Source: Prochlorococcus sp. AG-402-G06
GTDB taxonomy: Bacteria; Cyanobacteriota; Cyanobacteriia; PCC-6307; Cyanobiaceae
Length of the DNA: 64,000 bases
NCBI GenBank assembly: GCA_003277985.1
Contig: QCHR01000002.1
Span: 62,001 to 126,000 of the forward strand
Direction: 5' to 3'
The position numbers and the translations under genes were made by a program. Positions 1 through 3,598 of this stretch are shown here, in pieces. The notes under the pieces are model-generated. The model was not told the origin of the DNA, did no database searches, and saw only the letters and a list, made by a program, of their open reading frames with translations. Within the stretch, counting starts at the first letter, position 1. Each line of letters begins with the position of its first letter.

Positions 1-177
1 AATAGCATATTAGAAGGTGCGTTTGCTTATAATGCAAAATTTGAAAATGTTATTATTAAAGGTGCCGATTTTACTGATGTATTGATTGCGAATGATGTAA
101 AAAAAAAGCTATGTGTTATCGCAGATGGGATAAACAGTGTCACTAATAAAAAAACAAGTGATTCGTTGGATTGTTAG
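1..177 (+). CDS. Pentapeptide-repeat protein, C-terminal end (5' truncated by window)
   Basis: Frame 1 is open from the first base to a TAG at 175-177. The visible 58 residues begin with A(D/N)LXX-like repeat units (LEGAFAYNAKFENVIIKGADF) and end in a non-repetitive tail with two cysteines. Pentapeptide-repeat proteins fold as a quadrilateral beta-helix; in cyanobacteria the short secreted or thylakoid-lumen forms are common, but their function is mostly unknown. The N-terminus is outside the window, so targeting cannot be judged. The following gene's first ATG lies 9 bases after this stop, so the two may be cotranscribed. Confidence 0.7.
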   Translation, partial: NSILEGAFAYNAKFENVIIKGADFTDVLIANDVKKKLCVIADGINSVTNKKTSDSLDC

Positions 178-185
178 TAAATAGT

Positions 186-2288
186 ATGAGTATACTTATT
201 AAGAAAAATATTAATCACTATAAATATATTTTTTGGACTTCAGTTATATTTATATGGATTATATCCACCTTTGCTGATCGGATTTGGTGGAATTTCTATA
301 GCAATACGCCTTCATGGGATCAGGCTGATTATCTCAATAGCGCTCTTGAGCATGCTAAAGCGCTCTCTTTTTTGGGGGGAGATGGAGCTTCAGACTTTGG
401 ATCTTTTCTTGATAAATCTCCAAAAATTCCTCCTTTTGCTTCAATAATCAATGGAGCCGTAATAGCCTTCGCTGGTAATGCTCCTCATGAAGCTGCCTGG
501 TCTTTAAGTATTTGGAATGGATTTTTTATCTTTAATATTGCTTCATGGGGACTTTATTTAAGAGGAAAAAAATTTTCGCTTATTTGTGTTCTTATTAGTG
601 CATTTTCCCCATTTTTATTTGATCTAAGAACAGATTATGTATTGGAGTTGCCTCTGATCGCCTCCATTACATTTTATTTGTTTCATTTAGGCAAGTGGAG
701 TGATAAATCAATTGGAGGCAAATGGATTCAATTGATAATAGCTTCTCTAGCATGTGCTTCTTCTTTGTTAATTAAGCAGAGTTCTTTATTAGTTATATTA
801 CCCTCTTTATTATTTATTTTTATACTTTCATTTAAAAGAGATAAAAAATTTAGATTACAATTTTTAGTCCTATTTCTTATAAATCTTTTAGCAATTTTCC
901 CTTGGTTTTATCACAATTGGATAATGATATTGAGTGGAACTTATAGAGCTATTTTTGAATCGGCGGCAATAGAAGGTGATCCCTATTTTTTGAGCTTCAA
1001 AAGTATTTTCTGGTACTTTCCTTATTTAAATAATCAGTTTGGAAGTGTTACTTTTTTTGTTGGATTGTCAGGGTTACTATTTGCCTTTTTAACATATGTA
1101 AGATCTTTTAAACCTCCAGTAAGATTAGTTGATACTTTAAATAAGAAGAATTATAAATGGACATGGATTTATTTTAATTTAATAGCATGCTGGACCTTTA
1201 CAACTTTCATACCTAACAAGGATGAAAGATATATTGCAAGTACGGTTCCGTTAATTATTTTACTGTTATCACTTGGACTCTCGAAATGGAGTGATTGGAT
1301 AGATACTTATTTTAAATTCAAATCTTATGGTTTATTATTAATTCCTTCTTTAAGTTTTCTATTTTCTAATTCTATTAACAAGTTTAACACTTTAGAAAAT
1401 ATTTCAAGTAAATATTATCCTGTTAAAGACATTATATCGATTGTCAAATCGGATCAGACTTTCGATGAAAAAGAAACAGTTATTATTGTTCCCAGCACTC
1501 CTGAAATTAATCAACATAATATAAGCTATTTTGGGAGAATAAATGGTGGAAATATTTTAGGCAGACAACTTGGGCAATCTCTTTTGCATATAGAACCTGT
1601 TCTTAAATACTCTAATTGGATTGTTTTGGCTGAGGGGGATCAAGGCTCAGTTTCAAGTAATTCGCTTGCTCTTGATAAATCGATTAGAGATAGTCCTTTT
1701 TTCAGAAAAGTTAAGGTATTCCCTAGAGAAAAAGAAGGAAGCTATTCTTTATGGAAGCGAAGATCAAGTTCGTTTAAGCAAAATGAATTCCATTATAGAT
1801 TTAATGAACTAGCAAAAGGAATGGAGACAGGTCCACTAGGCATTAAATTGATTTTTGATGAGATAGGAATCCAACATATGCTTGATGGGCATTTTAAATA
1901 TCAAAATATAGTTAGAGATAAGGCTTTAACCCAAATAAGTTCTAACCCTGAAAATGTTGAATCTTTATGGTCCTTATCGCTTCTGAAGATATTATCGAAT
2001 AGACCTTCTGAAGCAGATATTTATCTTAGAGATTTAGAAATTTTGTTGCCGAATAATCCATGGCCAAGTGCTTACAGAAGTATTGTTAACCTTGCCACTT
2101 GGAACCCCTGGAAGGCATCCTTAATAGCAGATAGAGCTTATAAGAGAACTCCAAATTATTTTCTAAAAGGTTTAGGGGATATTAGTTCACTTTTTAGAGG
2201 AGCCTTTTGGCGAGTGACATCTGCTTTCAAAAGTGTCCCTGATGCAATAAAAAATATTGATGAGGCTTTAAAAACACTGGAGAAATAA
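186..2288 (+). CDS. GT-C (GT39/ArnT-like) membrane glycosyltransferase-like protein with C-terminal TPR-like region
   Basis: About 700 residues. An N-terminal hydrophobic helix (residues ~15-35) is followed by a loop with the acidic motif WDQADYL, the position where polyprenol-phosphate-sugar-dependent glycosyltransferases carry catalytic acids. About ten more hydrophobic helices extend to residue ~390; then a soluble domain (~400-530) and a helical tail (~560-700) that reads like TPR repeats (for example NPENVESLWSLSLLKIL). This is the usual plan of inner-membrane enzymes that move a sugar from a lipid carrier onto protein or glycan; acceptor and sugar are unknown. I chose ATG 186; an upstream TTG at 171 would overlap the preceding gene by 7 bases. 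Family assignment is from architecture and is moderate; an O-antigen-ligase-like protein is the alternative. Confidence 0.6.
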   Translation: MSILIKKNINHYKYIFWTSVIFIWIISTFADRIWWNFYSNTPSWDQADYLNSALEHAKALSFLGGDGASDFGSFLDKSPKIPPFASIINGAVIAFAGNAPHEAAWSLSIWNGFFIFNIASWGLYLRGKKFSLICVLISAFSPFLFDLRTDYVLELPLIASITFYLFHLGKWSDKSIGGKWIQLIIASLACASSLLIKQSSLLVILPSLLFIFILSFKRDKKFRLQFLVLFLINLLAIFPWFYHNWIMILSGTYRAIFESAAIEGDPYFLSFKSIFWYFPYLNNQFGSVTFFVGLSGLLFAFLTYVRSFKPPVRLVDTLNKKNYKWTWIYFNLIACWTFTTFIPNKDERYIASTVPLIILLLSLGLSKWSDWIDTYFKFKSYGLLLIPSLSFLFSNSINKFNTLENISSKYYPVKDIISIVKSDQTFDEKETVIIVPSTPEINQHNISYFGRINGGNILGRQLGQSLLHIEPVLKYSNWIVLAEGDQGSVSSNSLALDKSIRDSPFFRKVKVFPREKEGSYSLWKRRSSSFKQNEFHYRFNELAKGMETGPLGIKLIFDEIGIQHMLDGHFKYQNIVRDKALTQISSNPENVESLWSLSLLKILSNRPSEADIYLRDLEILLPNNPWPSAYRSIVNLATWNPWKASLIADRAYKRTPNYFLKGLGDISSLFRGAFWRVTSAFKSVPDAIKNIDEALKTLEK

Positions 2289-2325
2289 AAGTTTAACAGA
2301 AAATATCAATTTAGATTTACAGGAT

Positions 2326-2496
2326 TCAGAGTTGGTCTCTTTCAAATGTTTTTGTGATTTCTTTTAGAAATTCAACTATTTGGATATTTGTATACCCAAG
2401 CTCAGTTCTAAGACCTTTGCATGACGAAGTGATTTCTTTCCAAATGTCAGCTCTTACAATAGCTTCTCTGTCTTTTAAGTAACGCTCTTCTTTCAT
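2326..2496 (-). CDS. Small hypothetical protein, 56 aa
   Basis: A complete minus-strand ORF starts with ATG at 2496 and ends with TGA at 2326. The product is charged and helical (starts MKEERYLKDREAIVRADIW) with no membrane segment or signal peptide. Codon use is ordinary and the reading frame is the only sizeable one here. It is convergent with the glycosyltransferase, 37 bases away. I do not recognise the family; its regular amphipathic pattern makes it more believable than a chance ORF. Confidence 0.55.
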   Translation of the reverse strand: MKEERYLKDREAIVRADIWKEITSSCKGLRTELGYTNIQIVEFLKEITKTFERDQL

Positions 2497-3117
2497 TTTG
2501 ATTTAATTAAGTAATTTATGGGTTTCCGAGCTTTTTAAGAAAAACAATCAAATAAATCTTCAAGATTTAATTTGTTGATTTGATTGGTATCAGATCAGTA
2601 TCTCAAAAATCAAAAAACACCTATTATCGGAGTACCTTAACGAAAAAACAAAAGAATCACGAGAATTATGGCATTCTTGTAGGTATTAAATATTTGATTT
2701 ACTTATCTTAGTTTGGCCTGAAAATAAATCATTTTTAAGATTTTTGAGTTGAGTAACGATTTGCTTGAATCTTTAAATTTTTTTTGGGGAACTGTATATT
2801 TTTATATCCAAAATATTTTCAAACCTTTAATCATTTATATCAACTCTCAATTGGATGAAGTGATGGAGAGGATTTACGAATCCATCAATCCCTGAGTAGG
2901 TTCCTTTCACAATGTTAGTTTTCAAGATTAGATATATTTGTTTGATATCAAATGTTTTAAGCAATCTTTTGATAGGGGAACCTAGAGTTCACTGAAAATA
3001 ACTGCAATTTTCCGCTAACCTTTTTTAATTTTTACTTAGTTCTCCTAATATTTAGCTAGTTTATCATATAGGAGGGGCAAGAGTATAATTAAATACCTCC
3101 AATCTCTCCTGAAAGAA
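2497..3117. other. Gene-poor stretch before tRNA-Ser
   Basis: No convincing gene in about 620 bases. A 43-codon plus-strand frame with a TTG start (2580-2711) is open, but I see no family or ribosome binding site and do not call it. The only recognisable element is the decayed tRNA-Ser copy listed separately at 2865-2933. The rest is AT-rich. Its position directly beside an intact tRNA gene suggests the worn edge of an integration site. Confidence 0.5.
2865..2933 (-). pseudogene. Decayed partial copy of tRNA-Ser
   Basis: Read beside the intact tRNA gene (3118-3204, same orientation), this stretch keeps the 3' acceptor end (plus-strand ggagag), a weak trace of the T arm, and most clearly the anticodon arm: plus strand 2913-2932 differs from the intact copy at only 2 of 20 positions, both C to T. 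Those two changes break two of the five anticodon-stem pairs, and nothing resembling the D arm or the 5' acceptor strand follows. It is therefore not a functional tRNA. An old tandem duplication or an integration scar (att-like duplicate) are the likely origins. Confidence 0.6.
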
Positions 3118-3204
3118 CGGAGAGTGGGGGATTCGAACCCCCGATGGAGTTGCCCCCATGCTAGTTTTCAAGACTAGAGCCATAAACCACTCGACCAACT
3201 CTCC
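3118..3204 (-). tRNA. trnS-UGA: tRNA-Ser (anticodon UGA)
   Basis: On the minus strand the acceptor stem starts GGAGAGT and is matched by ACTCTCC at the 3' end, followed by discriminator G (3118). The anticodon loop reads CTTGAAA on a CTAGT/ACTAG stem, giving UGA. The T arm is GGGGG-TTCGAAT-CCCCC, and the long variable arm marks a class II tRNA. CCA is not encoded. The neighbouring decayed copy upstream on the plus strand shares its 3' two thirds. Confidence 0.95.
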
Positions 3205-3403
3205 ACCTAAAATTTTACCTTATTAGCTTCTGAAATCTTAGAAAAATTTCTCAAACAACAATTTCATGTCTATTTGCTATTAAGTTAGTTTCAAGAAGGA
3301 CCTTCTAGACCTTTAAAAATTTCAGAACCTATAGATTCTCATTATGCATAAATCTCAATGAGATTATTTGTGCAATAATTTTAAACATTGGTAAATCACT
3401 TAC

Positions 3404-3598
3404 ATGGCAAGCAACAAGAGCCCACAATCTCGTTTCCTTGGAGACCTTCCTATGGAGGGTGGTATTAGTCAAAAAGAGAAATACCGTTATGTAGCTCACT
3501 TGATGTTTTTTATTGGATGCGCTTTATTTTCCTTTGGTATTTGGGCTCTCTCTGGCTTTACTGCTTCAAGCGGGTCAACAGGACCATTTCCGTTTTAA
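3404..3598 (+). CDS. Small single-helix membrane protein, 64 aa
   Basis: The hydrophilic N-terminus (~28 residues) is followed by one hydrophobic helix (residues ~31-51, YVAHLMFFIGCALFSFGIWA) and a short Ser/Gly/Pro tail. ATG 3404 is the only reasonable start. It resembles the 67-aa protein at 37499 in length, in the position of the helix and in the pattern A-x-L-M-F-I-x(3)-L-x(3)-G-x-W. That pairing suggests a small family of thylakoid or plasma-membrane proteins, as is common among picocyanobacterial photosystem accessory peptides, but I do not recognise a named subunit. It lacks the ExxNGR motif of high-light-inducible proteins. Confidence 0.75.
   Translation: MASNKSPQSRFLGDLPMEGGISQKEKYRYVAHLMFFIGCALFSFGIWALSGFTASSGSTGPFPF

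Follow-up and report, generated by a model that had tools for sequence, protein, structure and literature searches.

Beside its intact tRNA-Ser gene, the genome of Prochlorococcus sp. AG-402-G06 contains a second, damaged stretch resembling the same tRNA. This locus raises the question of whether that stretch is the scar of an integrated mobile element or a duplicate of the gene that has decayed in place. We analyzed a window of 64,000 nucleotides (contig QCHR01000002.1, positions 62,001 to 126,000), in which all coordinates below are counted, together with the same locus in related genomes.

The decayed tRNA-Ser copy in the window

The intact tRNA-Ser(UGA) gene lies on the minus strand at 3117-3205 (anticodon TGA); it is the sole intact tRNA-Ser called by ARAGORN and scores 54.2 bits against the Rfam tRNA model. 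When the whole tRNA was compared by local alignment with the intergenic region at 2289-3116, a match with a score of 40 was obtained at 2865-2931, in the same orientation as the intact gene (minus strand). This score was reached by none of 2000 dinucleotide shuffles (maximum 36), and the best alignment elsewhere in the window scored 33. The alignment begins with the acceptor end at 2865, where traces of it had already been noticed, takes in the T arm, the variable region, and the anticodon arm, and extends no further, a 5' half being absent. Thus, the decayed copy reported by the first-pass annotation is real, and 2865-2931 is confirmed as a decayed copy of the 3' half of tRNA-Ser(UGA) only.

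The anticodon arm of the intact tRNA (3158-3177, minus strand, exact match) is repeated in the half-copy at 2912-2931 (minus strand), and the two copies are the presumed recombination core. The earlier count of 18 matching bases out of 20 stands, with the coordinates moved by one from 2913-2932. Inspection of the alignment by eye likewise bore out that both differences lie in the anticodon stem and that each breaks a pair. With up to three mismatches, the 20-base arm occurs at two places in the window, where 0.01 would be expected by chance.

A covariance-model search, suggested as a check of 2850-3000, reported no tRNA at the half-copy (Rfam, cmscan, E ≤ 1), because the copy is too decayed. 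That the fragment falls under any tRNA covariance-model threshold and that its alignment has many gaps would suit a chance resemblance, or a functional RNA that is merely tRNA-like. We consider such an explanation hardly credible in view of the shuffling result, of the position of the fragment near the offset at which four relatives (G023, G005, G011, and G035) have a clearer 3' half, and of the large differences between this fragment and those in the other scars described below, as decay predicts.

Occupied, scarred, and empty sites in related genomes

Searching related genomes gave matches in 59 of 60, some of them solely to other tRNA genes; no locus was obtained from G019, G024, and G036. 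Loci L045-L048 (G008 twice, G013, and G027), with a best tRNA match of 76-83%, were dropped before counting, and L158 (G013) likewise. The first set comprised 31 same-genus loci, with both flanks read as far as the contigs reach. Four genomes added later, two occupied (G201 and G386) and two empty (G288 and G349), brought the same-genus loci to 35, and six second-genus loci (L173-L178) were inspected and enter no count.

A 3' half to the left of the intact tRNA that beat all 200 shuffles was found in 7 of the 31 loci, namely in the genome of the window itself (G000) and in G023 (61 of 61 bases), G005, G011, G035, G010, and G003; in G001, a weak half at an equal offset scored 21 against a shuffle maximum of 22. 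Five of the 31 (G023, G005, G011, G035, and G029) have an insert of 1.6-4.3 kb to the right of the intact tRNA; at the far end of the insert is a displaced 5' half, beyond which the normal right flank resumes. Of these five, all but G029 have retained a clear 3' half at the place of the decayed one in the window. The layout of an occupied site therein is 3' half, segment E, intact tRNA, insert, and 5' half, segment E being the DNA between the readable 3' half and the intact tRNA. Almost nothing of the 3' half remains in G029, though E is present.

Rather than the same decayed copy with the same neighbors in all relatives, alignment of the locus revealed at this place, as the first-pass annotation had anticipated, variable DNA bounded by tRNA-Ser fragments in 7 of the 35 same-genus loci and, in the same arrangement, in three loci of a second genus (G190, G231, and G206). 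Both displaced halves surround the intact tRNA in 8 of these 10 occupied loci, from two genera. The exceptions are G029 and G386, the latter having a right insert with an intact integrase but neither E nor a displaced 3' half. Loci with extra DNA to the right of the tRNA and no recognizable 5' half (G004, G014, G028, and G032) were excluded from the occupied count. Four genomes (G000, G001, G003, and G010) represent scars, and at the window's locus there is neither cargo nor a displaced 5' half. The mobile DNA of the relatives lies to the right of the intact tRNA, up to the small ORF equivalent to that at 3404-3598 of the window (plus strand), a conserved marker of the right chromosomal flank; in relatives, its neighbor is either a displaced 5' half or the tRNA itself, at its 5' end.

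The first-pass annotation had also put forward the left-hand DNA as possible island cargo. We rejected this assignment: the gene of a glycosyltransferase-like membrane protein (171-2288, plus strand; PMT_2 match below cut-off) is the left neighbor in 25 of the 31 loci, the pentapeptide gene is found in 29 of 31, the remaining two (G003 and G006) ending at a contig edge, and the mobile DNA of the relatives lies on the opposite side. Since the gene at 171-2288 adjoins in so many loci, the left genes are mostly ordinary neighbors, though the slot varies. In G010, G012, G028, and G029 (loci L064, L067, L036, and L041), a different three-gene cassette replaces the glycosyltransferase to the left of the tRNA; in G014 (L068), the glycosyltransferase lies to the right of the tRNA, and in G006, the contig ends.

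Displaced 3' halves end at about tRNA bases 57-61 in the plus-strand count (63 in the second genus, with the last bases partly matching) and displaced 5' halves start at tRNA bases 42-49; the two overlap only in the anticodon arm. Segment E spans 189-215 bases in eight occupied loci, and the same spacing from 3' half to tRNA is 184-191 bases in the four scars. A profile of E was built from five occupied genomes and searched against the left flanks of the 31 loci. Beyond its own five, it matched G010 (1.6e-6), G000 (0.0092), G001 (0.01), and G003 (0.24), each at the expected place, with one chance-level second match, in G010 (5.9), and no match in the left flanks of the empty genomes. The match in the window, at 2932-3036 (no strand assigned), points to a remnant of the left end of the element; it is weak when the window is taken alone, as is the match in G003. 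In the reverse comparison, a profile of the four scars matched all five occupied genomes (8.5e-6 to 0.39); this profile also matches empty genomes because its right-hand part resembles the ordinary tRNA flank of type F, described further below.

Right ends of the inserts are conserved in five occupied genomes as well. An arm-type repeat motif, GACCNARRGTTGACC, was found with up to two mismatches at 15 places in the ten occupied spans (about 39 kb) versus 7 in 207,725 background bases, an enrichment that is suggestive only, because the motif was picked after inspecting the ends. It is absent from G201 and, among the four scars, occurs once, in G010 only.

A tree was constructed from five neighboring proteins; it is a quick tree, and regional recombination could add to the conflict. 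On it, the three states require at least 10 changes over 38 rows, and occupied-or-scar versus empty requires 8 changes over the 35 same-genus rows. Placing the seven occupied same-genus genomes in one clade was rejected (p-AU 6.2e-9), and the occupied G386 and the empty G012 are sisters. The closeness of the two copies and their shared orientation would be explained by an ancient tandem duplication of the tRNA gene without mobility, one copy of which has been decaying. However, the similarity does not reach past the anticodon arm, the adjoining DNA is related to the left end of the relatives' element and not to the tRNA 5' half or the right flank, and the states are scattered on the tree, all of which makes a duplication very improbable. 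Integrase-driven insertion at tRNA-Ser, as first proposed, accounts best for the fragment, with relatives showing variable DNA between tRNA-Ser halves at the corresponding site, and the half-copy in the window is very probably an integration scar, the remnant of a small tycheposon-like element present in an ancestor.

The recombinase and the proposed route of insertion

At the right end of its insert, G386 encodes a 405-residue tyrosine recombinase (PF00589, 3.2e-4, below cut-off; PHROG 1, integrase, 3.2e-7). An intact recombinase, 67% identical to it, occupies the same right-end place in G231 of the second genus, and N-terminal remnants are found in G190 and G206. Arg267, Arg356, His379, and Tyr388, which we take to be the catalytic residues, are invariant in six aligned recombinases. 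Relatives of the G386 protein at E ≤ 1e-20 were detected in 32 of 400 genomes of the family. Among 30 loci of this recombinase family, tRNA-Ser(TGA) lies beside 19 and tRNA-Arg(CCT) beside 4, while 7 have no tRNA in the stretch; the seven include G386 and G231, in which tRNA-Ser is more distant. As a control, 58 other PF00589 loci with similar flanks showed tRNA-Ser(TGA) in 0 cases and any tRNA in 4. The arrangement is not uniform, as relatives in other genera are found on either side of the intact tRNA-Ser. The members adjoining tRNA-Arg(CCT) instead of tRNA-Ser(TGA) are those at L182, L184, L188, and L197.

No integrase was found in the window's own genome (assembly 86% complete), where PF00589 gave 0 matches and the G386 integrase had no counterpart at E ≤ 1e-20. 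Likewise, P0001 had no match among phage records, and the single record retrieved by a scan of genome contigs was that of G386 (Prochlorococcus sp. AG-363-G03). In viral contigs, no occurrence of the 5'-half pattern was detected. Two viral contigs with the E pattern were dismissed as chance, only about 20 bases matching E and no tRNA being found. An alignment search did locate a distant relative of the recombinase (29% identity) beside tRNA-Ser(TGA) in a viral contig (L210:2649-3880).

The 8.7-kb insert of G231 (L171:4953-13787) encodes a primase-polymerase, a Cox-like regulator, the recombinase, and a second recombinase piece, a gene set that is presumably phage-satellite-like. When nine G231 proteins were scanned for phage structural genes, the only match was a weak one, between an HTH protein and a terminase small subunit. 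The inserts (G231 proteins and part of the others scanned) yielded no satellite-specific packaging gene, and no recombinase was recognized among the scanned part of the ORFs of the small inserts. Five small inserts (L039, L040, L035, L041, and L150) have in common an unannotated protein of 115-116 residues near the right end, one copy of which was scanned against Pfam and gave no match.

Taken as a series of events, the preferred reading would begin in an ancestor with the entry of a tycheposon-like integrative element into the tRNA-Ser(UGA) gene, through a tyrosine recombinase presumably acting in the anticodon arm, where the exact crossover point would lie. In the window's own lineage, too, insertion would have split the chromosomal tRNA gene, leaving its 3' half on the left and its 5' half on the right. 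The element probably carried its own complete tRNA-Ser, and tRNA function would therefore have been kept. The cargo and the displaced 5' half would have disappeared later; the simplest means is recombination across the 48 bases that this half shares with the intact tRNA. The product would be the 3' half, the left end of the element, the intact tRNA, and the old right flank.

Another route is a classical 3'-type integration, in which an element bringing no more of the tRNA than a 3' half made the gene whole again, and the chromosomal 3' half, displaced to the element's far end, became the decayed copy. The roughly 185 bases in between would then be all that is left of the element, and the right-side inserts of the relatives would be separate events. 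Such a route needs no element-borne complete tRNA, and 3' fragments mark far more islands than 5' fragments do (3760 versus 159 in Islander, according to the accessible part of PMC4383910). Some relatives of the integrase also flank a complete tRNA-Ser on its 3' side (for example, L183 and L187), and the right insert of G386 occurs without E. Against it, E and the displaced 3' half co-occur with a right insert and a 5' half in 8 of the 10 occupied loci, from two genera, and independent events would not be expected to hold the E spacing at 189-215 bp. We therefore regard the classical route as unlikely and favor entry of an element with a complete tRNA-Ser.

Known elements and the possible layered history of the site

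Prochlorococcus tycheposons were reportedly described by Hackl et al. (2023, Cell). What the present elements share with them is integration at a tRNA gene in Prochlorococcus, a tyrosine recombinase (intact in the relatives G386 and G231), and cargo of variable size; in contrast, the window holds a scar only, with no integrase in its genome. A complete tRNA is a further feature of tycheposons, and the present element probably carried one as well. With VEIME-type satellites, the G231 insert presumably shares a primase-polymerase, a Cox-like regulator, and recombinases, whereas most inserts here are small, with no recombinase recognized in the scanned ORFs.

In the accessible part of PMC10872708, tycheposons are described as Prochlorococcus elements at seven tRNA genes, and marine phage satellites such as VEIMEs are named in the parts of PMC11389934 and PMC10187409 available to us. 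The available text of the Islander study (PMC4383910) gives anticodon-centered attachment sites as a known crossover class (2083 islands). As in those islands, the boundaries here consist of an intact tRNA and a tRNA fragment; unlike them, the occupied relatives mostly have 3' and 5' fragments flanking a complete tRNA. The accessible part of PMC2784084 reports that Synechococcus RS9917 has a relic prophage with tRNA-Ser at its boundary. The Prochlorococcus case in the same text resembles ours in that partial tRNA copies beside an intact tRNA are relics of mobile DNA, but it concerns a different tRNA and a host site with transposase relics. In the available portions of the literature on tycheposons and on tRNA-Ser islands and recombinases, we found no description of a tRNA-Ser(UGA) site in Prochlorococcus; the kind of element is thus known, while the site is newer. 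The newer part is this site together with its proposed layered history. The tRNA-Ser(UGA) gene is a repeatedly used integration site in Prochlorococcus, tied to a recombinase family that mostly adjoins tRNA-Ser(UGA), and the series from occupied through scar and partly deleted to empty shows island gain and loss in streamlined genomes. It also points to the possible replacement of an essential tRNA gene by the copy that a mobile element carries.

Such layering is suggested by the flanks. In the window, the 3' flank of the intact tRNA at 3037-3115 (no strand assigned) is of type F (profile match 4.2e-18) and was probably brought by an element. The stretch at 2743-2864 (no strand assigned) appears to be the old chromosomal tRNA flank, of a second type, F2, and decayed: the distance of about 122 bases from the left landmark to the half-copy resembles that of F2-type relatives, and the F2 profile match is weak (0.76). 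This profile was derived from six relatives with different DNA between the left landmark and the tRNA. It had a strong match in G010, on the left side of the scar (4.9e-11), whereas the matches in G017, G201, G003, G000, and G001 were weak (0.05 to 3). F adjoins the intact tRNA, to the right of the scar, in G000, G003, G010, and G001 (3e-18 to 3e-13), and it lies to the left of the displaced 3' half in G023, G005, G011, and G035.

From the left landmark to the tRNA, the distance over the 35 same-genus loci is 350-392 bases in 10, 87-160 in 21, and other in four (259 in G029 and 176 in G018, with G014 and G006 unplaced by the landmark). The group at 350-392 comprises five occupied genomes, all four scars, and also G017, where no tRNA half was seen. 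The tRNA-proximal 75 bases or so are of F type in the scars versus E type in the recently occupied genomes; the old element thus differed in some respect from those now present.

The simplest reading of these flanks, a tentative one given a single strong F2 match and several weak ones, is that insertions came in two or more rounds: an older one would have entered an F2 site and introduced F, the window being its relic, and newer ones would have entered F sites. More generally, the site may be a palimpsest in which elements with a whole tRNA-Ser replaced the 3' flank of the tRNA more than once, a view to which we give somewhat less than an even chance. If it is true, most "empty" sites of this genus, with an F flank, would descend from an occupied state like the window's, the displaced half and F2 having since been deleted; the essential tRNA-Ser gene now in use would be element-derived, and the window would preserve an intermediate.

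In some F2-type relatives (L067 and L157), the tRNA end is repeated in inverted orientation (CCCCACTCTCC ... GGAGAGTGGGG) just to the left of the tRNA, possibly as a terminator. After the tRNA 3' end in F-type flanks, this inverted repeat has decayed (3100-3130 in the window).
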